Positions 20,985-64,000 of a stretch of DNA of 64,000 bases are shown here, piece by piece. Source of the stretch: Emticicia sp. BO119 (lineage in GTDB: Bacteria; Bacteroidota; Bacteroidia; Cytophagales; Spirosomataceae). The first letter of the stretch is position 1. Each line of letters starts with the position of its first letter. A program made the position numbers and the translations under genes. The stretch spans positions 868,001 to 932,000 of the forward strand of contig NZ_JACETV010000002.1 in the NCBI RefSeq assembly GCF_013912375.1, in the 5' to 3' direction. The notes under the pieces are model-generated. The model did not search any database. It was not told the origin of the DNA and saw only the letters and a program-made list of their open reading frames with translations.

Positions 20985-22235
20985 ATGGACAAGCAGATAA
21001 AAAAGAAATTCTGGAGTAGACAACGAATCTTATTAACGATTGGTGGCGTATTGTTTGCCTCATTTGCAGCTTACAGCCTGCTTTTTGCAGACAGGCGCTC
21101 GACACTGAATGCTGAAAAAGATAAAATGACTATTTCACAAGTAACTAATGGTACTTTTGATGAGTTTATCGTAGTTACAGGAGTGGTAATGCCTTTGAGA
21201 ATTATTCGCTTAGATGCCATCGTAGGAGGATACGTAAAAGAAAAGGTGGTAGATGGCGGTAATATAGTAAAACAAGGACAGATTATATTGAAATTAGAGA
21301 ATCAGAATTTAAAGCTGAATTTCTTACAGTCGGAGACAGAAGCGAGCCGATTAGTGAATGACTTACAGAATACACGCCAACGCTTGAAAGTAGAGAAGTT
21401 TACGATTCGTAAGAATATGTCTGACCTTGATTTCTTAACAGCACAGGCCAAGGATTTATACGAAAGAAACAAGAAGTTGTATGATGATAAGGTAATTCCT
21501 GAAGCTGATTACCTGAAAGCAAAGCGTGATTATGAGAAATTAGTAAGCCAGAAAGAGATTGATCTGGAGTCGCAGAGATATCAGGAAGAAAATGCTGCGA
21601 TGCAGATTAAACAACTGGAAGGTACTTTGGAGCGTACACAGAAAAACGTACAATTGTGGCGTGAAACTCTTGAAAACTTAGTGGTAAAAGCACCAGTATC
21701 AGGTTTGTTATCATCAATTGATGTAGAGGTAGGGTCTAATATTAACCAGGGGCAAAACATCGGGCAGATTGACGACTTAGATGGTTTTAAACTGCGTGTA
21801 GATATAGATGAACATTATAACGGAAGAATTTTTGCAGGTTTAAGTGGTACTTTTGAGTTCAGCGGGAAAGAATATCCGCTGGAAATAACCAAGATATACC
21901 CTGAGATTCGTAACGGACGTTTTCAGGTAGATATGATTTTCTCAAAGACTGTTCCAGACGGTATCAAAAGAGGGCAGTCTTCTCCAATCCGTTTAGAGTT
22001 AGGTAAAGCTACCAAAGCAGTGCTTTTACCAGTAGGTGGATTCTTCTCTGATACAGGTGGAAACTGGGTGTATGTGTTAGATAAATCGGGTGGTAAGGCC
22101 GTAAAGCGCAAAATTACCTTAGGTCGTAAAAACCCTGAATATTTTGAGGTGTTGGAAGGTTTGGAAGTGGGAGATAAAGTAATTACCTCTTCTTATGAAA
22201 ACTTTGGAGATAATGAAGTTCTTGATCTAAAATAA
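20985..22235 (+). CDS. Periplasmic adaptor (HlyD/MacA-like membrane fusion protein)
   Basis: This 416-residue protein is anchored by one N-terminal membrane helix (about residues 14-32, ILLTIGGVLFASFAAYSLLF). It has a biotinyl-lipoyl-like half (VVDGGNIVKQGQIILKLEN near residue 95), a long coiled-coil hairpin (about residues 105-225), the second lipoyl half (VVKAPVSGLLSSIDVEVGS near residue 233) and beta-barrel/membrane-proximal domains. In MacAB-type systems the adaptor links inner-membrane permease to an outer-membrane channel. It is first in the long operon, followed 57 bp later by the ATPase. No TolC-like gene is present in this window. Confidence 0.92.
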   Translation: MDKQIKKKFWSRQRILLTIGGVLFASFAAYSLLFADRRSTLNAEKDKMTISQVTNGTFDEFIVVTGVVMPLRIIRLDAIVGGYVKEKVVDGGNIVKQGQIILKLENQNLKLNFLQSETEASRLVNDLQNTRQRLKVEKFTIRKNMSDLDFLTAQAKDLYERNKKLYDDKVIPEADYLKAKRDYEKLVSQKEIDLESQRYQEENAAMQIKQLEGTLERTQKNVQLWRETLENLVVKAPVSGLLSSIDVEVGSNINQGQNIGQIDDLDGFKLRVDIDEHYNGRIFAGLSGTFEFSGKEYPLEITKIYPEIRNGRFQVDMIFSKTVPDGIKRGQSSPIRLELGKATKAVLLPVGGFFSDTGGNWVYVLDKSGGKAVKRKITLGRKNPEYFEVLEGLEVGDKVITSSYENFGDNEVLDLK

Positions 22236-22292
22236 TCTGTATAAACTTATAAACAAATACCCTTGATATTCAAGAAATAAAAAACAAAAATT

Positions 22293-22970
22293 ATGATAAA
22301 AGTATCTAATCTTCAAAAAGTGTTCACTACCGAAGAGGTAGAAACTACCGCCCTGAATGGTATTGACATGAATATCAAAGATGGTGAATTCGTTGCCATC
22401 ATGGGTCCGTCAGGATGTGGGAAATCAACTTTGCTCAACATCATGGGCTTGTTGGATAACCCATCTGAAGGGAGCTATGATTTCTATGGCGTAGAAGTAG
22501 CCAAATTGAGCGAGAGAGAACGTGCAGCACACCGCAAGGGTAATATTGGTTTCATTTTCCAAAGCTTCAATCTGATTGACGAATTAACAGTTTTCGAAAA
22601 TGTAGAACTTCCTCTTTTATACTTGAAAACACCTGCTACCGAGCGTAAGAAAAAGGTAGAAGAAGTATTGGAGAGAATGAACATCATGCACCGTCGCAAT
22701 CACTTCCCGCAACAATTATCGGGTGGTCAGCAACAACGTGTAGCTATTGCACGTGCGGTGGTAGCCAAACCAAAATTAATTCTTGCCGATGAGCCTACTG
22801 GTAACCTTGATTCAACCAACGGCGAAGAAGTAATGAAATTGCTTCAGGAATTAAACAACGAAGGCACTACTATTATCATGGTTACTCACTCACCTTATGA
22901 TGCAGGTTTCTCGCACAGAATCATTAACCTGTTTGATGGTAAGGTAGTAACGGAAAACTTCCACGTATAA
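22293..22970 (+). CDS. ABC transporter ATPase, MacB/LolD type
   Basis: A stand-alone 225-residue nucleotide-binding subunit. Walker A is [10 protein letters not shown] (about residues 37-46), followed by the Q-loop FQSFNL, ABC signature LSGGQQQR (about 141-148), Walker [14 protein letters not shown] and the switch histidine MVTHS. The LolD/MacB subgroup is indicated by the sequence around DEPTGNLDS and the small size. It is the only ATPase in the window, although fifteen permeases follow. It must therefore serve several of them, or others recruit ATPases from elsewhere. It lies 158 bp before the first permease. Confidence 0.96.
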
Positions 22971-23128: not shown

Positions 23129-25552
23129 ATGCTAAAAAATTATTTCAAAATCGCCCTTCGTAATCTCTGGAAGAACAAAGCATATACCTCAATCAATATT
23201 GTTGGGCTCTCAATTGCTTTTGGGTGTGCTATTCTGTTGTTTCTGACAGCTTATTTTGAGTTTACCTATGACGATTTCCAGACTAATAAAGACCGCATTT
23301 TCAGAGTTTACTTCAAAATTAATCAACCTGAAAAAATAGAATATCAATCTAATCTTTCTACGCCTGTAACTCCTGCCCTAAAAACTGATTTCAGTGCTGA
23401 AATCAAATATGCTACACGTATCGTAAGCAGTGGCGTGCAGATTGTGCAAGGCGAAAAAACAATTGATGAAGACATTCGCTATGTTGATGCGGATTTTCTG
23501 AAAATATTTTCTTTCAGAATGTTGAAAGGAAATCCTGATATAGCCTTGAATGATTTGCGAAGTGTAGTTTTGAATGAAGAAGTAGCTAAAAAGATATTTG
23601 ATAAAGCTGACCCTGTAGGCAAAACTGTGCAATTGAATTTTGGCGGAAGAATAGAAAGTTTTGTGGTAACGGGCGTAATGGAGAAAGCGCCTAAAAACTC
23701 GTCAATTGAGAATGATATGTTGATGCGTTTTGAGAATAATCCTGAATATAAGGACTCGAAAGAAAAATGGGACTCCAATTATCACGATGTATATGTGCAA
23801 CTGGCTGATAAGGTCGACTTCCTGAATTTTGAAAGACGATTAAAATCGTTCACTGAAAAATATTATAAAGGCAGTATTGAGCAACTAAAAAAAGACGGTG
23901 CAAAACCTGATGAAAGAGGGGAAGTCAGAAGCCTGCGCTTATTGCCTATGCCTGAAATGCACTTCAATAAACAAGCTGGCGGCAGCCGCTCAATTGACAT
24001 TGCTTATCCATATATATTATTAGTTATAAGTGGCCTGGTGCTATTGATTGCCTGTATCAACTTTATTAATCTCTCAATTGCCCGCTCTATGACACGTGCT
24101 AAAGAAGTAGGCATGAGAAAAGCATTGGGCGCACTAAAAGCCCAGATTGTAGGCCAATTCTGGGGCGAAGCTTTTATTATCTGTATTCTGGCATTTGGCA
24201 TCGGAGGCGTATTAGCCACTACTTTAATGCCACAATACAACACCTTATTCAGAAGTAACCTGACTATTGACAATCTTCTTAGCCCGGTGGTAGGTATTTT
24301 ATTGCTAATCAGCTTTTTAATTATCACTCTGATTGCCGGAGGATATCCAGCCTTAGCAGTGGCTAAATTCAACACGGTAGAAGTATTGAAAGGAAAAATA
24401 AAAGTAAGCTCGCGGTCAGGTGGTATCAGAAGTGCATTAATTGTGGCACAGTTTAGCATAGCTATTTTATTAATAAGCTGTACCCTTATTATATGGAAAC
24501 AGATAGACTATTTGCGTAACCAACCTCTTGGATTTAACCAAACTCAAGTAATCAGCATACCGGTAGGAAATGAGGTACAAGGGGGCAAAGTATTAGAGTT
24601 TATGCGCAACAAGCTGGCCAATGCGTCACCGATTGTGAGTATAACGGGTGCAGATATAAACATTGGCAGAGGCAAAGATGGGTCAGGCTATAAATCTGTT
24701 TATAGCTTTGAAATGGAAGGCAAAACCTACCGCACCAATGGCCTAAGCATAGATTATGACTATGTAAAAACATTGGGTCTGACTTTAGTAGCGGGTAGAG
24801 AATTCTCACGTGAGTTCCCATCAGATAAAGACCGTGCCTGTATCGTGAATGAGACCATGGTGAAACACCTTGGCTACAAAGACCCGATTGGCAAAAAAGT
24901 AGCTTTAGGTGATAGTATAGGTAAAACAATTGTGGGAGTAGTGAAAGATTATCATTTCGAGTCATTAAAAAACAAAATCGAAGCAATAACCTTCCTTTAC
25001 CAAGGCGATTTTGGCATCAACTACATATTCGTAAAACTGACTCCTGAAACGCCGAAAACAACCATTGATATGATTGGTAAGGCGTATAAAGAAATTGCAC
25101 CGAAATCTGAATATATGCCTTCGTTTTTAGACGAAAACACCAACAATCAGTACAAGAAAGAGGAGAGAATGTCGCAAATTGTGATGAGCGCAGCTACTTT
25201 AACTATAATCCTTTCTTGCATGGGCTTATTTGCCATAGCCTTAATGATGATGGCACAACGAACCAAAGAAATTGGTATCCGAAAAGTTTTAGGGGCCAGC
25301 GTACCAAACTTAGTGGCTCTACTTTCAAGAGAGTTTGTGGTATTAGTCGTGATTGCCATTCTCATTGCTACGCCATTGGCGTACTATCTGATGGATAAAT
25401 GGATTCAGGACTTTGCTTACCGTACCGAAATCACCTGGTGGGTTTTCGGCCTGGCAGGGGTAGTGGCATTATTGATAGCCTTATTTACTGTAAGCTATCA
25501 GTCTATCAGAGCAGCATTAATGAATCCGGTAAGGTCATTGAAGTCGGAATAG
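23129..25552 (+). CDS. FtsX/MacB_PCD permease 1
   Basis: An 807-residue permease with the duplicated layout seen throughout the array: one membrane helix (about residues 18-42), periplasmic MacB_PCD domain (about 45-285), three helices (about 290-415), a fifth helix (about 433-455), second periplasmic domain (to about 675) and three C-terminal helices. The cytoplasmic coupling motifs are RAKEVGMRKALG (about residue 323) and RTKEIGIRKVLGAS (about 710), both FtsX signatures. The family moves lipids, lipoproteins or peptides mechanically, without a channel. It is most like permease 2: both have AFG after helix 1 and SCMGLFAIALM in helix 6, unlike SCLGLFGLA in most others. The ATG is preceded by an A-rich leader. 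Confidence 0.93.
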   Translation: MLKNYFKIALRNLWKNKAYTSINIVGLSIAFGCAILLFLTAYFEFTYDDFQTNKDRIFRVYFKINQPEKIEYQSNLSTPVTPALKTDFSAEIKYATRIVSSGVQIVQGEKTIDEDIRYVDADFLKIFSFRMLKGNPDIALNDLRSVVLNEEVAKKIFDKADPVGKTVQLNFGGRIESFVVTGVMEKAPKNSSIENDMLMRFENNPEYKDSKEKWDSNYHDVYVQLADKVDFLNFERRLKSFTEKYYKGSIEQLKKDGAKPDERGEVRSLRLLPMPEMHFNKQAGGSRSIDIAYPYILLVISGLVLLIACINFINLSIARSMTRAKEVGMRKALGALKAQIVGQFWGEAFIICILAFGIGGVLATTLMPQYNTLFRSNLTIDNLLSPVVGILLLISFLIITLIAGGYPALAVAKFNTVEVLKGKIKVSSRSGGIRSALIVAQFSIAILLISCTLIIWKQIDYLRNQPLGFNQTQVISIPVGNEVQGGKVLEFMRNKLANASPIVSITGADINIGRGKDGSGYKSVYSFEMEGKTYRTNGLSIDYDYVKTLGLTLVAGREFSREFPSDKDRACIVNETMVKHLGYKDPIGKKVALGDSIGKTIVGVVKDYHFESLKNKIEAITFLYQGDFGINYIFVKLTPETPKTTIDMIGKAYKEIAPKSEYMPSFLDENTNNQYKKEERMSQIVMSAATLTIILSCMGLFAIALMMMAQRTKEIGIRKVLGASVPNLVALLSREFVVLVVIAILIATPLAYYLMDKWIQDFAYRTEITWWVFGLAGVVALLIALFTVSYQSIRAALMNPVRSLKSE

Positions 25553-25675: not shown

Positions 25676-28120
25676 ATGATCAAAAATTATCTAAAAATCG
25701 CTTTTCGTAAGCTTTGGAAAAACAAGGTGCATACGGCTATTAATATAGCAGGACTGGCTGTGGCTTTTGGCAGCAGTATTTTATTGTACCTTACAGCCTC
25801 TTACGAATTTTCTTACGACACGTTTCACAAAGATGCTGACCGCGTGTATTGTTTATATTTCAATACAGCCGATAAAGGCGGAAAGCAGGAATACAGCGCT
25901 GCCATGGCCTATCCGCTTACGCCAGTTTTAAAGACTGAATACCCGGAAGTAGAAGCGGTTACAAGTTATAGTTGGGGAGCCGGAGAGCTAACGTATCAGG
26001 AAAAGAAATTTGAAAAAACTATCCAAACAGTTGATGCTGATTTTCTGAAAATATTTTCTTTCCCTCTGTTAAAAGGAAATATTAATACAGCTTTTGCTGA
26101 TAAAAACAATATTGTTATCAGCAGGACAACGGCAGAAAATATGTTCGGTAAAGAAGAACCTATTGGCAAGCAAGTATTAGTAACCTTATCAAATGAGAAA
26201 ACACCATTTATTGTTACAGCTGTAATAGATGATGCTCCAAAAAATTCTACTGTGAGATACGACGCTTTGATACGGACCGAAAATAATCCGGGTTATGAAC
26301 CAATCAAAGATAAGTGGACAAGTCAGAATCATCAGGTATATGTAAAATTGGCTGCTAATATTTCCCAAGCTACTGCCGAAAAGCGTTTTGAGTCTTTGGT
26401 AAATAAATACATGAAGACCTCAGAAGAAGATGCGAAGAAGAACGGTCGCTTAAAAAATGCAAGAGGACAGTATCTCAGCTTATTAATGATGCCTTTAAAA
26501 GAGGTTCATTTCGATGAAATTACCGGTTGGGGTAGTGGTGTGAGTAAGAACTACATCTACACCTTATTGACCATTGCCTTACTGATTGTCTTAATCGCTT
26601 CTATTAATTTTATTAACCTTACCATTGCCAAATCGTTCACGCAAGCCAAAGAGGTAGGGGTTCGTAAATCTTTAGGTGCCAACAAAGGGCAGCTTTTCCT
26701 ACAAGGCTGGGGCGAGGCATTTATGGTTTGTGTTGTTGCTTTAGTGATGGGTTTAGGTATGGCCTATGCTTTCTTGCCTCAATTCAATAAATTATTTGAT
26801 TCCAGTCTTTCGTTAGATAATTTCCTAATTCCTGATAATTTAATCATAAGCCTTATAAGCTTTATTGTTATCACCCTTATTGCCGGGGGGTATCCGGCAT
26901 TTGTTTCTTCCCGTTTCAATATTGTGCAGGTATTAAAAGGAAAACTGACCAGGAAAAAGCCCGGCTTGCTGCGCAACTCTTTAATCGTTGTTCAGTTTTC
27001 TATTTCCTGCATGCTAATCAGTTGTACGCTGGTCATTTTCACGCAATTAAAATTCCTGAGAAACAAGCCACTGGGATATAGTAAAGACCAGGTGATTAGT
27101 GTACCTATTAGTAATGCCTTAAATAGCCAGACGGCTGTACAGCAATTCCGTAATGAATTATCAAAATATCCGGGCATTGAATCAGTATCTGGTTCACAAA
27201 TCAATTTTGGTAATGGCCTGGATGGAAGTTCCTCAAGAAGTACTTACGGATTTGATTATTATCCGAATGCAAGCGATACCAAAAACTCGAAGAGTATCCT
27301 TACGGACTGGGTACGCGTAGATTATGACTTCATAAAAACGATGGGCATCAAAACCATTGAAGGCAGAGATTTCAGCCCTTCATTTGGTACAGACTCTACA
27401 GCTTTGATTGTAACTGAGAGTATGTTGAAACAAATGGGTGAAAAGCATGGGGTAGATAAGTTTCTGATGCCTGATTCATCAGTTGGTAAACAAAAAATTA
27501 TAGGTGTTATTGCCGATTTTAATTTGTACTCTTTGCGCCGAGAAAACAGAACTATCACCCTGGAAATGGCACCGAAAGGGAGAGTTAGCTATGTTTTAAT
27601 AAGAACTGGCAATCAGAATCTGGCAGAGTCAATGGATTTAGTAAAAAATACCTGGAAGAAATTAGCCCCTAACGAAGAGTTTAAAGGCTCATTCATCAAC
27701 GAAAACGTTGACCGCTGGTTTAATAAAGAAGAACGTCTCTCGCAGATCTTCAGCCTTGCCGCGGGTATTGCCATAATGCTCTCTTGTATGGGTTTATTTG
27801 CTATTGCCTTAATGATTATTGAGCAACGTACCAAGGAGATTGGCGTGCGCAAAGTTTTAGGTGCAAGTGTCAGCAGTATCGTCAATCTTATCTCGGTTGA
27901 TTTCCTGAAAATGGTTAGTATTGCCTTTATAATAGCAACTCCGGTAGCTTATTATGCCATGCAGAGATGGCTACAGGACTTTGCCAATCGCACTGACTTG
28001 AACTGGTGGATTTTTGCACTGGCAGGCGTGCTTTTAGTAATAATAGCTCTACTTACGGTAAGCTATCATTCCATCAGAGCGGCTTTGATGAATCCGGTGA
28101 AATCATTGAAAACAGAATAG
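25676..28120 (+). CDS. FtsX/MacB_PCD permease 2
   Basis: 814 residues, the longest complete member apart from small start differences. Helix 1 region is AGLAVAFGSSILLYLTASYEF, very close to permease 1, and helix 6 reads SCMGLFAIALMIIEQ. Coupling motifs are QAKEVGVRKSLGANKGQ (about residue 323) and RTKEIGVRKVLGASV (about 717). The first periplasmic domain and the GLDGSS-containing second domain differ from permease 1 enough to suggest a different ligand surface. It probably arose from the same tandem duplication as permease 1. The start sits at the end of a family A element. Confidence 0.93.
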   Translation: MIKNYLKIAFRKLWKNKVHTAINIAGLAVAFGSSILLYLTASYEFSYDTFHKDADRVYCLYFNTADKGGKQEYSAAMAYPLTPVLKTEYPEVEAVTSYSWGAGELTYQEKKFEKTIQTVDADFLKIFSFPLLKGNINTAFADKNNIVISRTTAENMFGKEEPIGKQVLVTLSNEKTPFIVTAVIDDAPKNSTVRYDALIRTENNPGYEPIKDKWTSQNHQVYVKLAANISQATAEKRFESLVNKYMKTSEEDAKKNGRLKNARGQYLSLLMMPLKEVHFDEITGWGSGVSKNYIYTLLTIALLIVLIASINFINLTIAKSFTQAKEVGVRKSLGANKGQLFLQGWGEAFMVCVVALVMGLGMAYAFLPQFNKLFDSSLSLDNFLIPDNLIISLISFIVITLIAGGYPAFVSSRFNIVQVLKGKLTRKKPGLLRNSLIVVQFSISCMLISCTLVIFTQLKFLRNKPLGYSKDQVISVPISNALNSQTAVQQFRNELSKYPGIESVSGSQINFGNGLDGSSSRSTYGFDYYPNASDTKNSKSILTDWVRVDYDFIKTMGIKTIEGRDFSPSFGTDSTALIVTESMLKQMGEKHGVDKFLMPDSSVGKQKIIGVIADFNLYSLRRENRTITLEMAPKGRVSYVLIRTGNQNLAESMDLVKNTWKKLAPNEEFKGSFINENVDRWFNKEERLSQIFSLAAGIAIMLSCMGLFAIALMIIEQRTKEIGVRKVLGASVSSIVNLISVDFLKMVSIAFIIATPVAYYAMQRWLQDFANRTDLNWWIFALAGVLLVIIALLTVSYHSIRAALMNPVKSLKTE

Positions 28121-28193
28121 CAGAGGGAAAGGGCATAGGGCATAGAGTTTTGCCCTATGCCTTTACCTCCTCTGCCCCAAGCCTTACAAAATT
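28121..28193 (+). repeat. Family B intergenic hairpin, copy 1
   Basis: GGCATAGGGCA pairs with TGCCCTATGCC (11 bp), and the outer CAGAGG pairs with CCTCTG. The element fills the gap between permeases 2 and 3, ending about 20 bp before the ATG. Confidence 0.85.
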
Positions 28194-30611
28194 ATGATTC
28201 GTAACTATCTAAAAATCGCCTTTCGTAGCCTGCTTCGCAATAAGAGCTACGCCTTTATTAATGCTATTGGTTTGGCAGTGGGTATCGCCGCTTGTCTGCT
28301 TCTTTTTTTGATTGTACAGTTTGAGTCGAGTTTCGATAATTTTCATACAAAAAAAGAAAGGATTCATCAGGTGGTTTCCGAGTTTCATTATGGGGGTATC
28401 AGCTATGGCAGAGGAGCACCAATGCCAGTGCCATTAGCATTGAGAACCGATTACCCACAATTGGAAAAAGTAGCAGGGATAGCGGGTACGGGCGCTCAGA
28501 TAAATATCTATGATGCTAAAACCAAAAGCATAGAAAAGAAATTTAAAGATGAAGGAGGTATGTTTTATGCCGAATCTGAGTTCTTTGAAATATTTGATTT
28601 TCCGTTGCTTTCAGGGAATCCTAAAACGATGCTGGCTGAACCTTATACGGCTGTTCTGACTCAGGAAATGGCAGAGAAGCTTTTTGGCGACTGGAGAAGT
28701 GCCATAGGAAAGACTTTTACAAGAGATAATGAGAAAGAACCTTACCGGGTTACGGGTGTTTTGAAAAATATTCCTAAGAATACTGATTTCCCCTTAAAAG
28801 TTGTACTCTCATACAAGAACTTCCTGATTAATAATAAAGGTAATGCCGATGACTGGGAGAGTGTATCGGGTAGCTGGAATTGCTTTATTCTGCTTCCTCC
28901 GCAGATGTCGGAAAAGCAGTTTAATGCCTTAATGCCTGCTTTCGATAAAAAGCATAAAACACCCGAGCAAAGAAGCCGTGTACGTAATTTTATCCGCCCA
29001 TTAAGTGAATCGCATTATGATAGCCGCTTTGGCAACTTTGCGCACCATACTATAAGCCCTGAAATGATTTGGGTATTAGAGATAATAGGCGCATTTTTAC
29101 TCTTAGTTGCTTGTGTAAATTTTATTAATTTAGCCACGGCGCAAGCGGTAAATCGTTCAAAAGAAGTAGGTGTGAGAAAGGCACTTGGGAGCAATAAAGC
29201 GCAATTAAGAGGCCAGTTTTTAGGAGAAAGTGCTTTAATCACGGTTATATCTGTTTTATTAGCTATTCTATTAGCAATCATCGCTTTACCTTTCTTAAAT
29301 ACGCTACTTAATTATAAACTAAGTCTTTCATTTACAGATAATCCTGTTTTATTACTATTTTTATTAATAGCAGCTGTCGTTGTAATCTTCCTGTCAGGGT
29401 TTTATCCGGCTATGGTTATTTCTGGTTTTAACCCTATTCTGGCGTTGAAAAGCAAGGTAACGGCTAAGTCTATCGGTGGTATCTCTCTCAGACGTGGACT
29501 GGTGGTATCTCAGTTTGTGATTGCTCAGTTTCTGATTATTGCGACTTTAGTTGTGGTAAGCCAGATGAACTATTTTCAGACGGCTTCCATGGGTTTTGAT
29601 AAAGAAGCGGTTATCAGGGTGCCGGTTCCAAACGATAGTCTTGATCAGGTTAAATTTCAGTCGCTCAAAACACAATTGCAAGAGCAAACAGGCATAAAAA
29701 ATGTGAGTATCGCTTTCAGATTGCCGGCAGATAATAACAACTGGAATAGCCCTTTTCAATATGACCATCGCCCAAAGGATACTGATTTTTCCGGCTTTTT
29801 AAACTGGGCAGACGCCGATTATTTCAAAACCTTTGATTTGAAATTCGTAGCAGGCAAAGGATATTCTCCAAGCGATACCGTTCAGGGTTATGTGGTGAAT
29901 GAGACAATGGTGAAAAAACTGGGTGCAAAAAGTGCTGATGAGGTGTTAGGCAAAGAGATTAATTTCTGGGGAGGAAAAATGAAAGCGCCTATTGTAGGGG
30001 TTATTAAAGATTATCATGCTACTTCGTTACATGGGGCTATCCCTCCATTAGTAATTGCCAGTAATAGAAATTTCTTTAATACTATAGGTATAAAGTTAGA
30101 AGCCAAAAATATGCAAAGCGGCCTGGATGCAGTAGAAAAAATCTGGACTAAATTTTTTCCGAATTATATTTATGAGTATCAGTTTGTCGATAAAAACATA
30201 GAAAATCTTTATCAACAAGAAAGACAACTTTCTACGCTTTATCAACTTTTTGCAGGTATTGCCATCTTTATCTCATGTCTGGGTTTATATGGCTTGGTAT
30301 CATTTATGGCCGTGCAGCGTACCAAAGAAGTAGGTATCCGCAAGACCTTAGGTGCTTCTGTAGGGCATATTGTTTATTTGTTTTCTAAAGAATTTACGAT
30401 ACTGATTGGCGTTGCTTTCTTGATAGCAGCCCCGGTAGGATATTATTTTATGAATGATTGGCTGAAACAGTTTGAATATAAAATAGACCTTGGTGCAGGA
30501 GTATTTCTGATGGCTATTGTTGGGTCTATCATGATAGCGTGGCTTACTGTAAGTTATCAGGCCATAAAAGCGGCACTGGTTAATCCGATTAAATCGTTGA
30601 GGTCAGAATAG
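28194..30611 (+). CDS. FtsX/MacB_PCD permease 3
   Basis: 805 residues in the standard eight-helix duplicated layout. Distinguishing features are INLATAQAVNRSKEVGVRK at the first coupling site (about residue 310-325), SCLGLYGLVSFM in helix 6 and the NPIKSLRSE ending. These are shared with permease 12, and in part permease 10, making a recognisable subgroup. The first periplasmic domain opens with FESSFDNFHTKKERIHQVV. The second coupling motif is RTKEVGIRKTLGASV (about 708). The ATG lies just after a family B hairpin and an A-rich leader. Confidence 0.93.
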   Translation: MIRNYLKIAFRSLLRNKSYAFINAIGLAVGIAACLLLFLIVQFESSFDNFHTKKERIHQVVSEFHYGGISYGRGAPMPVPLALRTDYPQLEKVAGIAGTGAQINIYDAKTKSIEKKFKDEGGMFYAESEFFEIFDFPLLSGNPKTMLAEPYTAVLTQEMAEKLFGDWRSAIGKTFTRDNEKEPYRVTGVLKNIPKNTDFPLKVVLSYKNFLINNKGNADDWESVSGSWNCFILLPPQMSEKQFNALMPAFDKKHKTPEQRSRVRNFIRPLSESHYDSRFGNFAHHTISPEMIWVLEIIGAFLLLVACVNFINLATAQAVNRSKEVGVRKALGSNKAQLRGQFLGESALITVISVLLAILLAIIALPFLNTLLNYKLSLSFTDNPVLLLFLLIAAVVVIFLSGFYPAMVISGFNPILALKSKVTAKSIGGISLRRGLVVSQFVIAQFLIIATLVVVSQMNYFQTASMGFDKEAVIRVPVPNDSLDQVKFQSLKTQLQEQTGIKNVSIAFRLPADNNNWNSPFQYDHRPKDTDFSGFLNWADADYFKTFDLKFVAGKGYSPSDTVQGYVVNETMVKKLGAKSADEVLGKEINFWGGKMKAPIVGVIKDYHATSLHGAIPPLVIASNRNFFNTIGIKLEAKNMQSGLDAVEKIWTKFFPNYIYEYQFVDKNIENLYQQERQLSTLYQLFAGIAIFISCLGLYGLVSFMAVQRTKEVGIRKTLGASVGHIVYLFSKEFTILIGVAFLIAAPVGYYFMNDWLKQFEYKIDLGAGVFLMAIVGSIMIAWLTVSYQAIKAALVNPIKSLRSE

Positions 30612-30680
30612 CGAGGGGCAAAGAGCATAGGGGAAAACTCATGCCCCATGCCCTCTGCCTTATGCCCAAAGCAAAAAGAT
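30612..30680 (+). repeat. Family B intergenic hairpin, copy 2
   Basis: Purine-rich left arm (AGAGCATAGGGG) and pyrimidine-rich right arm (GCCCCATGCCCTCT) form an imperfect stem with G-U pairs. The right arm contains ATG at 30648, which opens an in-frame extension of permease 4 but is part of the repeat. Confidence 0.8.
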
Positions 30681-38080: not shown

Positions 38081-38164
38081 TAAACTGTTAAATTAACTTA
38101 AATGAAATGAGAATGATTAGTTGAGGTGGTAACTTCAAATTTTAATCATCAAAATTTCAAAATT
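38081..38164 (+). repeat. AT-rich inverted repeat between permeases 6 and 7
   Basis: This junction lacks the A and B elements. GAATGATTAGTTGA (about 38111-38124) is roughly complementary to TTCAAATTTTAATCATC (about 38133-38149). It may be an independent internal promoter or leader region. I see no clear promoter motif. Confidence 0.45.
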
Positions 38165-51241: not shown

Positions 51242-51327
51242 AAAGAATAGATTTAAGGTAATACTACTATGATACGGTTATCTGAAAAATAGTTGGAATC
51301 TGATAGAAATATTTTTAAGCTAAATCC

Positions 51328-56534: not shown

Positions 56535-57497
56535 ATGGCGAAGCAAATAATCTTAATAATTTTTGCAGCTTTTCTGAGCTCAAATCTATCAGGTCAGCAG
56601 ATTCCGACAACAATAGACTGGTTTTTGCGTACAGGTAGTTCTCAAAATTCCCCACAGCTTTATGTAAAAGAAATGGGCATGGGAAAAGATACTATTGTGA
56701 TGTTGCATGGAGGATGGGGTGGTGCGCATGATGAACTGGTAGATGCTGTAAGAAATCTGGGTTCTCAGTTTCATTTTATATTTTATGAGCAAAGAGGTTC
56801 GCTCAGGTCTCCATGTGCCGATTCACTGATAAGTTTTGATGCACATATAGAAGATTTGGAGCGGTTAAGAAAAGAATTGGGGATACAAAAAATGATAGTG
56901 GTGGGTCATTCAATGGGTGGGCTTTTAGCAGGGGCTTATGCGTCAAGATACCCTGAAAGAATCAAAAAACTAATACTTTTAGCACCTGCCTATTTAAAGG
57001 AACCCTTGTCGAAAGGTGATATAGCTATTCTGAGCGTAAGCCGACCGGCTTTTGAGAGTTTTTTAGTCAGACCCGACATAAGAGCTGAATTAGAAAAATA
57101 TAACCTGACCGGAGATAATCTGAATTCAAGACAGGAGACCTTTAAAAACAGAATAAATCTTTGTGGCAGAATGGTTTACGATGTGAGCAACTGGAAGAAA
57201 TTTCAGGGAGGCGGTCCACTTTTTAAATTCAATGTATATAACCTGACTACGAGAACCTATCCTCCTGATGGCTTTAATTTTTTCACCGCACTTCAAAAAA
57301 CAGGTTTTCCGATAAGAGTGATTATGGGCGATAATGATTTTCTTGATTTTGGAAATACATTAATGCCAAAATGGTATAATGAAATACCAAATAGTCGGTT
57401 TATTTCCATCAAAAACGCAGGACATTTATTATGGTTCGACCAACCTGAGGCGTTTGAGAAGGCATTGAAAGAAAGTATTAAAGCCCCCAACCCCTAA
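56535..57497 (+). CDS. Exported alpha/beta hydrolase (proline iminopeptidase-like)
   Basis: 320 residues with a signal sequence (QIILIIFAAFLSSNLSGQ). The fold is shown by the oxyanion segment MLHGGWGG (about 56-63), nucleophile elbow GHSMGG (Ser126), acid in MGDNDFLDFG (Asp266 or 268) and His297 in NAGHLLWFDQPEAF, so the catalytic triad is complete. It resembles prolyl aminopeptidase-type esterases/peptidases and acts outside the inner membrane. It is embedded between permeases 12 and 13, with family A elements on both sides. The last codons (APNP and stop) lie inside the downstream repeat. It could process a transported peptide or lipid (inference). Confidence 0.88.
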   Translation: MAKQIILIIFAAFLSSNLSGQQIPTTIDWFLRTGSSQNSPQLYVKEMGMGKDTIVMLHGGWGGAHDELVDAVRNLGSQFHFIFYEQRGSLRSPCADSLISFDAHIEDLERLRKELGIQKMIVVGHSMGGLLAGAYASRYPERIKKLILLAPAYLKEPLSKGDIAILSVSRPAFESFLVRPDIRAELEKYNLTGDNLNSRQETFKNRINLCGRMVYDVSNWKKFQGGGPLFKFNVYNLTTRTYPPDGFNFFTALQKTGFPIRVIMGDNDFLDFGNTLMPKWYNEIPNSRFISIKNAGHLLWFDQPEAFEKALKESIKAPNP

Positions 57498-57597
57498 AGG
57501 GGAGTTGCTTACGCATTATTATATTAAATTCCCCTTTAGAGGTTAGGGGTTAATTTTCAACTTTTTAAAAAGTCCCCTATTTGGGGCTATGGGCATT
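57484..57597 (+). repeat. Family A intergenic element, copy 6
   Basis: Begins inside the hydrolase gene (CCCCCAACCCCTAAAGGGG), then GTTGCTTACGCATTATTATATT, a middle core CCCCTTTAGAGGTTAGGGG, TTTTCAACTTTTTAAAAAGTCCCC-like linker and a final GGGGCTATGGGCATT before the ATG of permease 13. It is complete and close to copies 1-3. Confidence 0.85.
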
Positions 57598-59991
57598 ATG
57601 ATACGCAACTATTTAAAAATCGCCATACGTAACCTTATAAAAAACAAGGTTTACTCTTTTATCAACATCGGTGGATTAGCCGTTGGCTTTACCGTCTTTT
57701 GTCTGATTTCGCTATATGTATTTGATGAGCTAAGTTTTGATAATTTTCATGCAAAGGGGGATAATATAGTAAGATTGGTGCATCATGCCGAATGGGAGGG
57801 TGGTGAGGCACATCATGCAGTTACATCAGCAGCCTTTGCTCCGGCATTGAAAGCTGAATTTCCAGAGGTAAAAGAGGCAGTCAGAATTTCACCTGAAGGT
57901 GGTGGGGTTATCACTTTCGGAGATAAAACTGTGAAGGCTGGTAATATAGTTTTTACAGATAAAAATGTATTTGAGGTTTTCACCTTTCCTTTTTTGGCAG
58001 GTAATCCTAAAACTGCGCTTTCAGAGCCTAATACCATTGTTATCAATGAAACATTGGCAAAAAAAATATTCGGCAGTGCACAAAAGGCGTTGAATCAGAC
58101 GATCATGTTTGATAAAACAGTAGCCAATAAAATTACTGGCGTTATTCAGGATATGCCTGCCAATTCTCATTTACAATTTGAGGGCTTACGTTCTCTGCCG
58201 ACCAACTATACTGCAGGCTGGCAGGAGTCTAATTTATATACCTATTTACTTCTGAGCGATGGAGTGGACAAGAGTAAGTTAGAAGCAAAATTCCCGGCCT
58301 TTGCGCAGAAAACCATTTTGAAAGAAATGCCTGTAGTCTCTTACAGAATGGAATTGCAGTCGCTGAGAGATATTTATTTACATTCTAACCTGCAATACGA
58401 AATAGGTGCCAATGGTTCTATCAACCGTGTATATTTATTCATGGCCTTAGCAGGTTTGATACTCATTATCGCCATCATTAATTATATGAATCTGGCCACA
58501 GCCAGAGCAGGTTTAAGAACCCGTGAAGTGGGTGTTCGCAAGGCAATCGGTTCTACTCAAACTGATTTAATGGGCTTATTTATTATGGAAGCCATGACAC
58601 TTAGCATCATCGCCTCATTCATTTCAGTATTTTTAATAAGTTCACTTCTGCCATTTTTCAATCAATTGGCAGACAAATCTTTAAGCATTGATAGATTTGG
58701 TTTTGGAGTTTCAATAGCTGGCTTCGTTCTTTTCAGTCTCTTTATTGGCTTGCTGAGTGGAAGTTATCCTGCTTTCTTTATTTCAAGATTCAAAATTGTT
58801 TTAGCCTTAAAAGGGCTTTCAGGGAACTTAAACCAAAGTATCATTTTTAGAAAATCGCTGGTCGTATTTCAGTTTGTTGCAACCATGATTTTAATTGCCG
58901 GAGCATGGATTATCTATCAGCAATTACAGTTTTCAGCTAATAAGGACCTCGGGTTTAACAGAGAACAGGTGGTGACGATACATATCGATGATAGAAATTT
59001 ACGCACAAAGGTGAAATCGTTGAGGGAGCAGTTAATGAAAAGTCCTTTGATAGAAAACGTGGCTACAGCCGGCAACCCTATCGGTAATAATAATCTGGGT
59101 CAGATGCCCTACTACTTTGAAAAACCGGATGGTTCTATTTCAACTAATTCTACGGTAGTACAAGAGCTGGTGGTGAACGCCTCCTTTGTGCCAACGATGG
59201 ATATTAAGATGAAGTTAGGGGATAATTTTTCAGAAAATAAACCAAGCGACGTTACCGACGCTGCACTCATCAACGAGACCTTAATGAAACAACTGGGGTT
59301 CTCAAATCCGATAGGAAAAAGGATGCAGGTGAAAATCAATAATGACCTTACTGTTGAGCGGAAAATCATAGGTGTATTCAAAGATTTTCATACGTATTCT
59401 TTGCAACATAAGGTAGAGCCTGTAGTGCTGATAATGCCTGTGCAAGCAAGCATGGAGGATAATCTTTACGTAAAACTCAATACTTCACAAACCAGGGAAG
59501 CATTGGCTTATATTGAAAAGACTTATCGCGAATTTGATAAAATAAGTCCGATTGAAATCAATTTTCTGAATCAGAATTTTGCCCGTCAGTATGAAGCAGA
59601 GCAAAAACAAGGAGCACTTTCGCTGTATTTTGCCATCATATCGGTTCTATTGGCTTGTCTTGGTTTATTCGGTTTAGCCGCCTTCACTGCACAGCAAAGA
59701 GTAAAAGAAATAGGTGTAAGAAAAGTATTAGGTGCCAGTGTGGCCTCTATATTCATTTTATTGAATAAAGATTTTATAAAACTGGTATTGCTGGCCTCAG
59801 TAATAGCCATACCAGTAGCCGTAGTTTTGATGAACAAATGGCTTCAGAACTTTGCTTACAAAGTGGAGATTCATTGGTGGGTGTTTGTTGGGTCTGCTTT
59901 TACTTCTTTATTAATTGCCTTACTAACAGTAAGTTATCAGGCCATCAGAGCAGCATTGGTGAATCCGGTTAAGTCATTAAAAACTGAATAG
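57598..59991 (+). CDS. FtsX/MacB_PCD permease 13
   Basis: 797 residues from the ATG at 57598. An in-frame ATG at 57589 is part of the repeat. Start MIRNYLKIAIRNLIKNK, helix 1 GGLAVGFTVFCLISLYVFDE. The first periplasmic domain has an unusual histidine cluster near residues 61-73 (VHHAEWEGGEAHHA). Coupling motifs are RTREVGVRKAIGSTQTD (about 307) and RVKEIGVRKVLGASVAS (about 701). The typical GREFS motif of the second domain is replaced by KLGDNFSENKPSDVTD. Ends NPVKSLKTE. Confidence 0.92.
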   Translation: MIRNYLKIAIRNLIKNKVYSFINIGGLAVGFTVFCLISLYVFDELSFDNFHAKGDNIVRLVHHAEWEGGEAHHAVTSAAFAPALKAEFPEVKEAVRISPEGGGVITFGDKTVKAGNIVFTDKNVFEVFTFPFLAGNPKTALSEPNTIVINETLAKKIFGSAQKALNQTIMFDKTVANKITGVIQDMPANSHLQFEGLRSLPTNYTAGWQESNLYTYLLLSDGVDKSKLEAKFPAFAQKTILKEMPVVSYRMELQSLRDIYLHSNLQYEIGANGSINRVYLFMALAGLILIIAIINYMNLATARAGLRTREVGVRKAIGSTQTDLMGLFIMEAMTLSIIASFISVFLISSLLPFFNQLADKSLSIDRFGFGVSIAGFVLFSLFIGLLSGSYPAFFISRFKIVLALKGLSGNLNQSIIFRKSLVVFQFVATMILIAGAWIIYQQLQFSANKDLGFNREQVVTIHIDDRNLRTKVKSLREQLMKSPLIENVATAGNPIGNNNLGQMPYYFEKPDGSISTNSTVVQELVVNASFVPTMDIKMKLGDNFSENKPSDVTDAALINETLMKQLGFSNPIGKRMQVKINNDLTVERKIIGVFKDFHTYSLQHKVEPVVLIMPVQASMEDNLYVKLNTSQTREALAYIEKTYREFDKISPIEINFLNQNFARQYEAEQKQGALSLYFAIISVLLACLGLFGLAAFTAQQRVKEIGVRKVLGASVASIFILLNKDFIKLVLLASVIAIPVAVVLMNKWLQNFAYKVEIHWWVFVGSAFTSLLIALLTVSYQAIRAALVNPVKSLKTE

Positions 59992-60060
59992 CAAACAGCA
60001 TTGGGTGGAGGGCAGAGGGTTCTGTTCCATGCCCCATGCCGCTGCCCAAAGCAAAAAAAT
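59992..60060 (+). repeat. Family B intergenic hairpin, copy 5
   Basis: GGGCAG near 60010 pairs with CTGCCC near 60041. The inner arms (ATGCCCCATGCC) pair only partly. This is the weakest B copy. It ends in CAAAGCAAAAAAAT before the ATG, like copy 2. Confidence 0.7.
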
Positions 60061-62490
60061 ATGCTACGAAATTATCTAACAATCGCCTTTAGAAATCTTG
60101 TTCGTAACAAGGTATATAGCTTTATCAATATTGTTGGTTTAGCTATGGGTATTACTGCTTTTTTATTTATTCTGGAATACATCAGTCTTGAAAAAAGTGT
60201 TAATAATTTCCACAAAAATTCGGCAGATACTTACCGTCTGCTGAATGAGGATATTCACGGAATTACCTCGCCGGATATCGGACCTGGCTGGGCATTAAAA
60301 GCCAAAGAAAATTTCCCTGAAATTAAAGATTTTTGCCGGTTTGAATCGGGCGTTTCTAAAGGTGTGGTCAAAAAAGCCAACGTCAATAGTGAGCCATTCC
60401 GCGAGTCAGATATTGGTTTTGCAGAAGGTAATTTCTTTGAGTTTTTTTCTTTCCCCCTGATATCCGGTAATGCTAAAGCCCTTAATAAGCCCAACACTGT
60501 TTTTATTTCTGAGAAAACTGCGAAAAAATATTTCGGTAACAATAATCCGGTAGGACAGATACTGATGCTGGATAATCAGTTTGGTACTTCGGCCCATAAA
60601 ATAGAGGGAGTTTTTGCTGATATGGGAGACAATTCAGACATCAGATACGACATGGTATTTTCATTAGAAACCATGAAAAGCCCCGGCTATCTGAATGGCA
60701 ATGAATGGGCTACTTTAACCAGCCTTGATTTTCAATACATCAATACCTACTTTCTGCTCAACAAAGGTGTTGACCCGAAGGCGTTTGAAAGCAAACTAAC
60801 AGATTTACGCAAGAAATCAGGCAAAGAAAATGATGATACCCGTTTCAGGTTACAGCCTTTGGCTAATGTTCACTTGGCCTCCTCATTGAGCGATACCTAT
60901 CAGACAACCGGAAATCTGAAATACGTATATATGTTGGGCGGTATTGCCTTCTTGATACTCCTGGTGGCCTGGTTTAATTATATCAATCTTTCAACGGCTA
61001 ATTCTTTAAAAAGGGCCAATGAGGTGGGGGTTAGAAAAGTAATAGGGGCAACTCGAATCAATCTGATTGCACAATTTTTAGGAGAATCAATCGTAGTGAA
61101 CCTGCTGGGTTTTGGCTTATCTGTATTCTTTATCTACTCGTTTCAGTCGTTCTTCAATGAACTGATCGGTAAAGAATTATCTATCCAGACTATTCAGTTT
61201 TCGTTAGTTTCTATTTTAGGGTTAAGTTTACTATTTATAGGTTCAATCCTTTCAGGGGCTTTAACAGCTTTTGTTTTATCAAACTTCAATCCAATCGAAA
61301 CGCTGAAAGGTAAATTAGGTAAACAATTAAAGGGCGTATTCTTACGTAAGGCTTTGGTAGTTTCGCAATTCAGTATTTCTATCATGCTTATTTTAGGAAC
61401 GGTTCTGATTTACCGCCAGTTGCATTTTATGCAAAACAAAAATCTGGGTATGAATACCCATCAGTTACTGGTTATTAAAGGGCCTGAAGTAGGGAAGGAT
61501 AGTACTTATAAAATACGTAAAACAGCCTTTATCGATGGTCTGTCTCAACAAAGTTTTATAAAAGATTACTGTGCATCAGGCAGTATCCCCAGTGGTTGGT
61601 ATAATTTCACTACCTCGGGCGTTACACAGGCAAAATCAAAATCCGGTGATGAACTGAAAACTTATTCATTCGCAATTATTGGAGACAGATTCCTGAAAAC
61701 CTATGGAATTGACCTGAAAGCAGGCAGAAATTTTACCTCTGCCGAATGCAATGTAGACTGGATGAATAATAATAAAATATTGCTTAATGAAAGAGGAGTA
61801 CAGTCTCTTGGCTTTACTTCGGCTGAAAAAGCAGTAAATGAAAAAGTTCAATGGGACGGAAGAACGCTGGAGATTATCGGCGTAGTGAAAAACTATCATC
61901 ATCAGGGTGTTCAGAAAGCCATTGACCCGATCATATTCTATCCGCAGAATTCATCAGCTTATTTTACTGTAAGACTAACGCCTGACAAAGTGCAGGATAA
62001 GATAGCAAGTCTGGAAAAACTATATAAAGCGAATTTTGCGGGTAATCCTTACGAATACTTCTTTGTAGACGAAAACTTCAACAAGCAATACCTTACTGAG
62101 CAACAATACAGCAGAATATTCACTACATCGTCTATCTGGGCTATTATCATTGCCTGTTTGGGCCTTTTCGGATTAGCTACCTTTACTACCGAAAGCCGTA
62201 CAAAAGAAGTCGGAATCAGAAAAGTACTTGGGGCAGGGGTGTTGGGTATTACAGCATTGTTAAGTAAAGATTTTTTGAAACTGGTAATGATATCCATTCT
62301 GATTGCAAGCCCTGTTGCGTATTATATGATGGATAAATGGCTGGAAAACTTTGAATACAAAGTAGATATATCATGGTGGATTTTTGCTTCCTCTGGCTTG
62401 GGAGCGATAGGACTGGCCTTAATTACAGTAGGGTATCAGGCTATCAGAGCGGCTTTGATGAATCCGGTTAAATCATTAAAAACTGAATAG
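60061..62490 (+). CDS. FtsX/MacB_PCD permease 14
   Basis: 809 residues from the ATG at 60061. Upstream in-frame codons belong to the hairpin element. Start MLRNYLTIAFRNLVRNK, helix 1 VGLAMGITAFLFILEYIS, followed by LEKSVNNFHKN rather than DELSYD. Helix 2 ends AWFNYINLSTANS. Coupling motifs: RANEVGVRKVIGATRIN (about 318), with Asn in place of Lys, and RTKEVGIRKVLGAGVLG (about 713). The second domain contains the variant GRNFTSAECNVDWMNNNK with a cysteine. Ends NPVKSLKTE. Confidence 0.92.
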   Translation: MLRNYLTIAFRNLVRNKVYSFINIVGLAMGITAFLFILEYISLEKSVNNFHKNSADTYRLLNEDIHGITSPDIGPGWALKAKENFPEIKDFCRFESGVSKGVVKKANVNSEPFRESDIGFAEGNFFEFFSFPLISGNAKALNKPNTVFISEKTAKKYFGNNNPVGQILMLDNQFGTSAHKIEGVFADMGDNSDIRYDMVFSLETMKSPGYLNGNEWATLTSLDFQYINTYFLLNKGVDPKAFESKLTDLRKKSGKENDDTRFRLQPLANVHLASSLSDTYQTTGNLKYVYMLGGIAFLILLVAWFNYINLSTANSLKRANEVGVRKVIGATRINLIAQFLGESIVVNLLGFGLSVFFIYSFQSFFNELIGKELSIQTIQFSLVSILGLSLLFIGSILSGALTAFVLSNFNPIETLKGKLGKQLKGVFLRKALVVSQFSISIMLILGTVLIYRQLHFMQNKNLGMNTHQLLVIKGPEVGKDSTYKIRKTAFIDGLSQQSFIKDYCASGSIPSGWYNFTTSGVTQAKSKSGDELKTYSFAIIGDRFLKTYGIDLKAGRNFTSAECNVDWMNNNKILLNERGVQSLGFTSAEKAVNEKVQWDGRTLEIIGVVKNYHHQGVQKAIDPIIFYPQNSSAYFTVRLTPDKVQDKIASLEKLYKANFAGNPYEYFFVDENFNKQYLTEQQYSRIFTTSSIWAIIIACLGLFGLATFTTESRTKEVGIRKVLGAGVLGITALLSKDFLKLVMISILIASPVAYYMMDKWLENFEYKVDISWWIFASSGLGAIGLALITVGYQAIRAALMNPVKSLKTE

Positions 62491-62573
62491 CATAGGGCAA
62501 GGGGCTTAGGGCAGAGTTTTTTCGTCCTATGCCCCATGCTCTCTGCCCTAAACAAAAAAGATTATGCTACGAA
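62491..62573 (+). repeat. Family B intergenic hairpin, copy 6
   Basis: TAGGGCAAGGGGCTTAGGGC (left) and the complement of CCTATGCCCCATGCTCTC TGCCCTA (right) pair along about 24 positions with several mismatches and G-U pairs. It ends in AAACAAAAAAGATT directly before the ATG of permease 15. Confidence 0.85.
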
Positions 62574-64000
62574 ACTATCTGAAAATCACGCTGCGTAGCT
62601 TGTTCAAAAACAAGACTTTTACGCTTATCAATGTTTCCGGACTTGCCATTAGTCTGGCGTGTTGCATTGTGCTTGGGCTATATGCCTATTCTGAAATATC
62701 TTTTGATAGATTTCATCAGAAAAACAAACAGATTTTTCGTATCAACAAAGTTGTATCTGAGGTAAACAAAACCCCTGAAAAACATAGTATTACTTCGGGA
62801 GCTTTGGCAACGGTATTGCCCAGAGAGATCCCTGAGATTGAGTACGCTGTGCGGTTTCGCCCCTGGTTTAATGAAATGGGAGTCAATTATGGGACTACCC
62901 AGAATAAATTGAGCGATGTGGCTTATGCTGATGCTGATTTCTTTCAGATTTTCGACTTTAAATTGTTAAAAGGAGATAGACAAACAGTTTTATCTGAACC
63001 TAATACTGCGGTTATTACCGAAAAAACATCCAAGCGTTTTTTCGGTAACAATGATCCTATCGGTAAAACACTTATTACTTTGAATGAAACCCCTGTAACA
63101 ATTACGGGAGTAACAGAAGATGTTCCACTTGATTCGCATATCAAATTTGATATGCTTATTTCCTGGAAAACTACCACATCAGGACCAAACAAAGACTATT
63201 TTCCCTGGTTAAATAATTGGTTGACTCAAGTAGTTTATACCTATGTACTGGTGAAGGAAAATGCAGATAACCACTTAGTTGAGTCAAAAATCGCAACGCT
63301 TTTTAATAAAAATCTTCCTGAAAGAAAAGACCAGTACAAGCATTATCTGCAATCGATTAATGATATTTATTTAGGTTCGGCCGATGTTAAATTTTCTGAG
63401 AGTTTCAGGTCAAATAGCGATAAAATAGTTTACGCACTCATTGGTATTTCTATATTTATTCTGCTCATTGCCTGCTTCAATTTTATCAATCTCTCTACAG
63501 TTTTATCGCTCAAAAGAGTTAAAGAAGTAGGTATGCAAAAAGTATTGGGAGCGGTTCGTAAACAGTTGATTTTTAAGTCTTTCATTGAGTCGTCATTGGT
63601 TTGCTTAACAGCGTTTTTGCTGGCACTTCTACTCGTTTCAGGTTTATTGCCAGACTTTAACCAGTTAGCAAATGCTCATATAGATTTTTCTCAATTACTA
63701 CGGCCAGGTATTCTTTTTGCTCTTGTCGGTTTTATTATCATTGTGAGCCTCATGGCTGGTTTATATCCTGCGCTTTTTCAAACCCGTTTTCAGGCTGTTG
63801 ATGTCTTCAAAAGTACAACCAAGGTTGGTAAAGACTCCTGGCTACGCCAGTCGTTGGTCATAACACAATTTACTTTATCAACCCTTTTGATTATTGGTAT
63901 GATTGTCATTAATAATCAGATTGATTTTCTGGTAAAGAAAGATTTGGGCTTTGATAAAGACCAGCAAATTATTATACAATTGACTGATACAGGTATGGAG
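62574..64000 (+). CDS. FtsX/MacB_PCD permease 15 (3' end beyond window)
   Basis: The ATG at 62574 opens a frame that runs to the window end without a stop (about 475 residues). Translated start MLRNYLKITLRSLFKNK, helix 1 SGLAISLACCIVLGLYAYSE, first periplasmic domain to about residue 285, helix 2 GISIFILLIACFNFINLS, coupling motif RVKEVGMQKVLGAVRKQ (about 315), with Gln in place of the conserved Arg, then helices 3-5. The second half must lie downstream. It follows a family B hairpin, so the array continues past the window. Confidence 0.92.

Follow-up and report, generated by a model that had tools for sequence, protein, structure and literature searches.

We analyzed a stretch of 64,000 nucleotides (the window: contig C12, 868001-932000) from the 6.57 Mb genome of Emticicia sp. 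BO119 (G000), reading also the next 53 kb of the contig for the extent of what we found: an array of 26 full-length duplicated MacB/FtsX-type permeases, 74 kb long (23129-97311 in window numbering, continued past 64000), with one HlyD-type adaptor (D) and one stand-alone ATPase (A) at its head. We consider it likely that a tripartite Type VII (MacB-type) ATP-binding cassette (ABC) export platform has this array at its core, with one motor set serving many permeases, each of a single chain; the motor is probably shared, and probably involves two ATPases, A and a relative of it (a2) that is encoded elsewhere in the genome. This reading builds on the gene content, gene order, conservation, fold class and co-occurrence that we observed. 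Each permease would be a fused pseudo-dimer of two four-helix halves, and each half would have its own periplasmic domain and, on the cytosolic side, a coupling helix; any permease present would offer its conserved coupling helices as the docking site of A together with a2; D and the TolC protein encoded beside a2 would assemble with them and transmit the movement to the outer membrane by a mechanotransmission like that of MacAB-TolC; and the diverged periplasmic domains probably decide which substrates are moved, presumably in the direction of export.

The permease array and its conserved elements

Fifteen of the 26 permeases start within the window (23129-64000, plus strand; listing and translation of open reading frames, ORFs), with ORFs of ~790-830 amino acids; 14 of them are complete, and the 15th, cut at the window end, closes at 64954. 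A preliminary description of this DNA had reported at least fifteen permeases, fourteen of them complete, in succession on one strand; the numbers stand for the window and rise to 26 once the contig is read past it, but the succession is broken by four minus-strand genes and one hydrolase gene. Ten further permeases follow beyond the window and then one more, separated from permease 25 by a minus-strand regulator/kinase-like pair and two unnamed ORFs (Table 1). The single ATPase and single adaptor reported for the locus hold over the longer region as well: no second ATPase ORF matching A (E-value up to 1e-10) is found in contig positions 885000-985000 (window 17000-117000), and dedicated ATPase genes just outside the window, named beforehand as evidence against a common ATPase, are absent among and just beyond the 26 permeases.

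All 15 window permeases share the basic N-terminus, the two coupling motifs and the NPxxSL-type end, as had been described, and each of the eight permeases submitted to Pfam has two stretches of MacB_PCD and two of FtsX. In the model that AlphaFold2 gives for permease 1 (mean predicted local distance difference test score, pLDDT, 81.8; predicted template modelling score, pTM, 0.74) we read eight transmembrane (TM) helices and two periplasmic domains, without linker helices; short helices at residues 324-333 and 712-720 stand at the position of the MacB coupling helix. A Foldseek comparison of this model with solved structures ranked Escherichia coli YbbP first and MacB next (MacB was also found by sequence), and the Porphyromonas gingivalis permease domain 3is6 matched well over its own length (TM-score 0.75). 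With FtsX domains, a MacB periplasmic core, a sizeable periplasmic domain that separates TM1 from TM2 and a coupling helix that joins TM2 to TM3, as found by Pfam, the model and Foldseek, the permeases belong to the Type VII (MacB-type) ABC superfamily. MacB touches its ATPase with two coupling helices, the major one lying between TM2 and TM3 and the minor one C-terminal, and an amphipathic helix lies ahead of TM1; fused permeases are described as always paired with a separate ATPase (PMC5985334).

Of all parts of the fused permeases, the four ATPase-facing elements are among those conserved best. Mean pairwise identity over the 26 permeases of the array is 65.7% in the N-terminal helix, 55.4% in coupling helix 1, 65.5% in coupling helix 2 and 76.6% at the C-terminus, against 26.0 and 24.5% in the two periplasmic domains, whose divergence between paralogues (~25% identity) had been pointed out earlier. 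The same is seen in 62 fused permeases of more than 700 amino acids that we collected, with a profile of the 26, from stretches of the genome around MacB-PCD matches: 70 positions are at least 90% conserved, and 32 of these fall in the four ATPase-facing elements, which span 92 positions, compared with 12 in 472 periplasmic positions. Thus the loss of ATPase contact residues in most permeases, the other result that had been named as speaking against a common ATPase, is not what we found. A pattern search recovers both coupling motifs in 57 of the 62 permeases and one motif only in the remaining five.

The array members are old. The 26 paralogues share 23-57% pairwise identity (median 34), and their dN/dS (ratio of nonsynonymous to synonymous substitution rates) is low, from 0.019 to 0.071 in 19 orthologue pairs between BO119 and Emticicia agri, which together indicate maintained genes and not decay or chance. 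ATPase A has no amino-acid changes relative to Emticicia agri and is 98-100% identical in the three nearest Emticicia genomes. In the same orthologue pairs the ATPase-facing elements have the lowest dN/dS (0.029 vs 0.045-0.051 elsewhere: periplasmic domains 0.051 and 0.045, membrane part 0.051). The periplasmic domains evolve at the level of the membrane part, and no diversifying selection was seen in them. The preliminary description had suggested interchangeable permeases that may give a repertoire of periplasmic specificities; diverged between paralogues but purified between orthologues, the domains look like fixed, different functions. Recent tandem duplication was rejected, because the paralogues are old and the arrays of different Emticicia species are colinear in their orthologues, apart from gains or losses of single positions. 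The six Emticicia arrays compared have between 6 and 26 permeases each, and permeases 15, 17, 18, and 20 have no close orthologue in them (best identity 30-44%).

Co-occurrence with ATPase A and adaptor D

ATPase A has canonical Walker A, LSGGQ, Walker B, D-loop and H-loop motifs. Among 296 Bacteroidota genomes (at least 95% complete), searched at thresholds of our own choosing (E-value up to 1e-80 for A, 1e-100 for the fused permease and 1e-40 for the adaptor), 92 have both A and permeases, 203 have neither and one (G481) has permeases only (Fisher 4e-77, a statistic that ignores relatedness); D is present in the same 92 genomes as A. In a family-level sample of 181 genomes (at least 90% complete; compared by eye and tally), both are present in 153, permeases only in three (G112, G113, and G117; best E-values 1e-75 to 1e-98), A only in one (G017), and neither in 24. 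Seven genera hold both states among the genomes listed for a comparison by genus, which leaves aside most of the negative phylum genomes, and in six of them (g1, g25, g48, g53, g55, and g56) A and permeases are jointly present or absent without exception; the seventh, g2, holds G112 and G113. For example, in g1, which is Emticicia, G005, G009, and G010 lack both A and permeases.

The number of permeases per genome (E-value up to 1e-30) is 63 in BO119, 41 in G014, 20 in G261 and 21 in G002, and reaches at least 79 in G027, at least 87 in G166 and at least 100 in G189, and each of these seven genomes has one orthologous A. In 69 of 79 related loci a fused permease lies downstream of A on the same strand. 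A sigma-54-type response regulator lies upstream of A in 70 of the 79 related loci with A labelled, on the opposite strand in 65. The near-perfect co-occurrence of A, D and the permeases makes one ATPase for many permeases well supported as a dependency. The preliminary description, which had proposed that one ATPase energises many permeases, was right as to this genetic dependency across the phylum, and wrong in seeing a one-ATPase system, as a2 is tied in (see below).

Several points weigh against a shared motor, beginning with our choice of the thresholds and the relatedness that the statistic ignores. The main exception to the co-occurrence is G017, which keeps D, A (C64:94518-95192, locus L136) and, elsewhere, a2, and has no fused permease at E-values up to 1e-30. 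G481 and G117 (drafts of 100 and 320 contigs) have permeases and a2 and no A at the threshold, and G112 and G113 have one weak permease match each, without A. A is not single in every genome: two A matches are seen in 10 of 154 A-positive family genomes and 7 of 92 A-positive phylum genomes. MacB/LolD-type ATPases without an obvious permease are also present in the BO119 genome (C23:102743 and C1:1319047), and no sigma-54 promoter at the chosen score, and thus no strong one, was found in the array spacers. Finally, the coupling motif occurs in C28p too, a single four-helix permease, and is common to MacB-type permeases. Not being special to the array set, it was rejected as a guide to which ATPase is used; it marks the permeases as designed for an ATP-driven cycle but does not point to a particular ATPase.

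The second ATPase and other readings of the array

ATPase a2 (220 amino acids; C12:111684-112340) is 53% identical to A and adjoins an OEP/TolC gene; the two lie 779 kb from the array in BO119, and apart from it in near relatives. We found a2 in 152 of the 181 family genomes; G074, G130, and G158 have A and permeases without a2 at the threshold, and G117 has a2 without A. At the phylum level a2 is present in 61 of 296 genomes, with one match each; all 61 bear permeases and 60 also have A. At least three permeases were counted in 57 of the 60 genomes with A and a2 vs 4 of the 32 with A alone (three candidates scored per genome; Fisher 4e-16, ignoring relatedness). In the 14 genomes examined in which A lies near a2, a2 follows the permeases in eight, and in the other six it comes directly after A or one small ORF further. 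In Chitinophaga loci a2 closes the array and is followed by TolC (the order D-A-permeases-a2 is seen, for instance, in the Chitinophaga pinensis loci L062 and L101), and the gene order D-A-permeases-a2-TolC is found in distant families. Of 79 loci taken from named genomes, each covering up to 20.7 kb around A, 33 contain a2, and a TolC-like gene comes directly after it in 27 of these. Position and co-occurrence together indicate that a2 belongs to the system.

In a tree of 26 copies of A and 20 copies of a2, each forms one clade. Walker A, Walker B, the signature, the catalytic glutamate and the H-loop are retained in nearly all of 48 a2 copies, and the D-loop aspartate in none of the 47 read (His in 37, Asn in 6, Gln in 4); all 114 rows of A have Asp here, including one row (L049, second ORF) that belongs to another ABC protein and was included by mistake. 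The residues just past the Q-loop are FN in 94 of 95 copies of A and YH in 48 of 48 copies of a2. In heterodimeric exporters the D-loop matters for contacts in the ATPase dimer; TM287/288 and TAP tolerate a change of its aspartate in just one of their two sides, and in ABCG5/G8 such a change is not critical (PMC7756269; PMC4242082). Given this role, the D-loop change of a2 makes a heteromer of A and a2 on the two permease halves the most attractive reading. We propose tentatively, as a possibility that we would not yet call probable, that a heteromeric motor of A and the D-loop-altered a2, one under each half, works under all of the ~20-100 permeases of a cell, and that the gain of a2 allowed the expansion of the permeases.

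A different division of labor, in which A and a2 each act as a homodimer, A on the adjoining permeases and a2 on the expanded rest, seems to us rather unlikely. With the motifs listed above kept in nearly all copies, a2 could hydrolyse ATP by itself; in 15 of the 20 loci examined that have A only, a fused permease of more than 600 amino acids stands beside D and A, and 28 of the 32 A-only genomes show just one or two permeases. However, the loss of the D-loop aspartate throughout would be unusual for a self-sufficient ATPase, and the permeases of A-only genomes form no single clade: they require 13 changes on the tree (starred branches force 10), and although shuffled labels need more (mean 22.7), so that these permeases do cluster to a degree, the idea that they are one primitive clade was rejected. 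A distinct coupling motif in A-only and A+a2 permeases was also rejected, the consensus being nearly identical. A column test between the two sets (17 vs 121 rows after thinning, two G424 rows dropped) gave no shift in coupling helix 1 (z -0.2), 1.7 in the middle segment, 3.6 in coupling helix 2, 4.7 at the N-terminus and 6.2 at the C-terminus; as the periplasmic domains themselves score 3.0 and 3.9, the C-terminus alone clearly stands out, and this comparison of sequences is suggestive at most of a C-terminal shift.

It has also to be considered that the permeases are true orphans which function independently of ATP, for instance in sensing or as scaffolds of the membrane, with the ATPase serving one or two of them only. 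TIGR03434 (ADOP) stands for "acidobacterial duplicated orphan permease", a family with large paralogous sets and nearby PadR genes; we know of no ATP-binding gene nearby in ADOP. It was the best NCBIfam model for all seven permeases tested (289, 224, 261, 276, 298, 277, and 184 bits, below the cut-off of 622.3), and the fused permease of ~800 amino acids is alike. The family is named for being orphan, and in Dyadobacter 28 and 33 ADOP copies "of unknown function" were reported as orphan permeases (PMC11573002). In BO119, 36 of the 62 permeases sit away from the array, and PadR or LytTR regulators adjoin several permeases. The near-perfect co-occurrence of permeases with A and D and the low dN/dS of the ATPase-facing elements nevertheless make the orphan explanation improbable, and with ATPase A heading the array, and an adaptor, TolC and a second ATPase that can be named, the "orphan" label does not fit here.

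The best fold match suggests another comparison: as in YbbAP-TesA, the permeases might extract lipids of the inner membrane and pass them to periplasmic hydrolases, without TolC. YbbP is likewise a fused two-unit permease with a separate ATPase (PMC5985334; PMC12646458), and a hydrolase gene lies within the array. We regard this as quite improbable, since there is one hydrolase only among 26 permeases, the NCBIfam YbbP model gives 17.7 bits for permease 1 (cut-off 999), and the HlyD-type adaptor, present in all 92 A-positive phylum genomes, together with the TolC-like gene after a2 points to a tripartite pump. YbbP has two extra linking helices (PMC5985334; PMC12646458), while eight TM helices, not ten, were read in the permease 1 model; the available descriptions of YbbAP give no adaptor. 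That every permease draws an unlinked ATPase of its own from the general pool, which is large enough in principle (37 ABC ATPase matches in the genome), is very improbable: the seven ATPases scanned matched MacB/LolD/DarD-like models, one of them (a1) within a complete system of its own, and a matching ATPase ORF lies within 5 kb of only 3 of the 36 permeases outside the array, in each case tied to another system.

A tripartite platform with a shared motor resembles several known systems in part. MacAB-TolC has the same MacB-type fold and coupling elements, and its adaptor and separately encoded OEP/TolC have candidate counterparts in the HlyD-type adaptor at the locus and the OEP/TolC beside a2; MacB, however, carries its ATPase within the chain and acts as a homodimer (PMC5985334), whereas here the ATPases are separate (A is an ORF of its own, 22293-22970) and the permease is a fused pseudo-dimer. 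The darobactin exporter DarBCD consists of a separate ATPase DarD, a membrane fusion protein DarC and a permease DarB (PMC9055067), and its cluster has one permease, compared with 26 here. DarC and DarD are the best NCBIfam models for the adaptor (193 bits, cut-off 450) and for A (286, cut-off 375), and DarB is second best for permease 1 (135, cut-off 700). To our knowledge, DarBCD has no second ATPase. No radical SAM enzyme (as in darE) was found among ten window proteins scanned by Pfam, with no search aimed at darA or darE. The multitask ATPases MsmK and MsmX of Type I sugar importers are single ATPases serving several permeases, as proposed here for A; they drive importers, unlike the exporter-type fold, the permeases numbering up to at least 100 per genome and the second ATPase seen here.

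In a targeted search of a limited paper collection we found no literature on a shared motor for fused MacB/FtsX-type permeases. For a family of duplicated permeases that reaches at least 100 copies in one genome (G189) and has been reported as orphan and of unknown function (PMC11573002), a likely motor, adaptor and outer-membrane partner can now be named. If the motor is shared, all permeases should fail once A or a2 is lost; dozens of permeases would then have in common a Type VII ABC motor whose second ATPase is altered in the D-loop, motor sharing would extend from importers to exporters, and the array would be a natural series for how one ATPase fits many permeases. Energy-coupling factor (ECF) importers have shared ATPases. 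If the motor is indeed heteromeric, the system would be an ABC exporter of hub-and-spoke design that mirrors, on the export side, the ATPase sharing of ECF and sugar importers, and might account for the "orphan" duplicated permeases in other phyla.

Neighboring genes, spacers and permeases elsewhere in the genome

Table 1. Genes of the array locus (window numbering, continued past 64000)
Feature	Position	Strand	Basis
Sigma-54-dependent response regulator, divergent from D gene	19264..20616	-	Pfam Sigma54_activat, Response_reg, HTH_8
Periplasmic adaptor D, HlyD/MacA/DarC-like	20985..22235	+	Pfam HlyD_3
Stand-alone ABC ATPase A	22293..22970	+	Pfam ABC_tran
Permease 1	23129..25552	+	Two MacB_PCD and two FtsX stretches (Pfam); AlphaFold2 model
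Permease 2	25676..28120	+	ORF translation
Permease 3	28194..30611	+	ORF translation
Permease 4 (start probably 30681, inferred)	30648..33068	+	ORF translation
Permease 5	33201..35588	+	ORF translation
Permease 6	35714..38080	+	ORF translation
Permease 7 (start probably 38168, inferred)	38126..40579	+	ORF translation
Permease 8	40659..43082	+	ORF translation
Permease 9	43193..45592	+	ORF translation
Permease 10 (start probably 45668, inferred)	45605..48034	+	ORF translation
Permease 11	48180..50576	+	ORF translation
Interruption: META-domain protein, LytTR response regulator, histidine kinase, unknown protein	50720..53766	-	Pfam
Permease 12	54053..56446	+	ORF translation
Alpha/beta hydrolase inside array	56535..57497	+	Pfam Abhydrolase_1; proline iminopeptidase-like, below cut-off
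Permease 13	57589..59991	+	ORF translation
Permease 14 (start probably 60061, inferred)	60001..62490	+	ORF translation
Permease 15, cut by window end, closes at 64954	62564..64000	+	Contig sequence past window
Permeases 16-25	up to 90512		Contig sequence past window
Permease 26	94879-97311		Contig sequence past window

The hydrolase encoded between permeases 12 and 13 has a signal-peptide-like start and recalls TesA beside YbbAP. Two regulator/kinase sets lie inside the array on the opposite strand, at 51328-53189 (LytTR, by Pfam) and at 90599-92331 (assigned from its sequence start only). A 2025 survey of sigma-54 reported that COG0577 permeases are enriched in Bacteroidia (PMC12316311). In the gap between regulator and adaptor of 61 loci, the best forward sigma-54 sites score 11.46 on average, vs 10.45 in shuffles and 10.62 on the reverse strand (of 14.5), a weak indication, from site scores, of a possible sigma-54 promoter there. 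Many spacers between 23129 and 88152 contain long-stem inverted repeats, which could be terminators, attenuators or recombination points; folding gives z < -3 in 11 of the 21 co-directional gaps that measure 30-260 bases. The CCCCTAAAGGGG-type palindrome pattern has 12 matches in the 75-kb array, none in 39 kb of flanks and five in 397 kb of the genome's other loci (both strands).

Besides the 26 array members, the 62 fused permeases comprise 13 of comparable size and 23 of a longer type (865-919 amino acids). All four long permeases scanned, from four loci, have "permease prefix domain 2". A tree of the 62 shows no clustering of the long type (20 changes vs a shuffled mean of 19.1; starred branches force 17), so that permease cores seem to have moved between settings many times. 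Three clusters have six long permeases each (C12:609474-625774, C1:673392-689985, and C26:246752-263023; loci L007-L008, L012-L013, and L019-L020), each with a PadR gene just upstream; the one permease scanned per cluster carries the prefix domain. In the DNA around the three permeases outside the array that have a matching ATPase ORF nearby, two are near a LolD-like gene with its own four-helix permease and the third is near an importer-type ATPase with a BPD_transp_1 permease; by context, these ATPases belong to other systems. The system of a1 (C22:430582-439864, L028) is separate and complete, with an adaptor-like protein, OEP/TolC, a1 and two permeases of four-helix size, and with a regulator and a kinase assigned by position. 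At C23:102674-106045 (L113), a MacB/LolD-type ATPase, with no permease match nearby, adjoins an 850-amino-acid protein without a Pfam or NCBIfam match.

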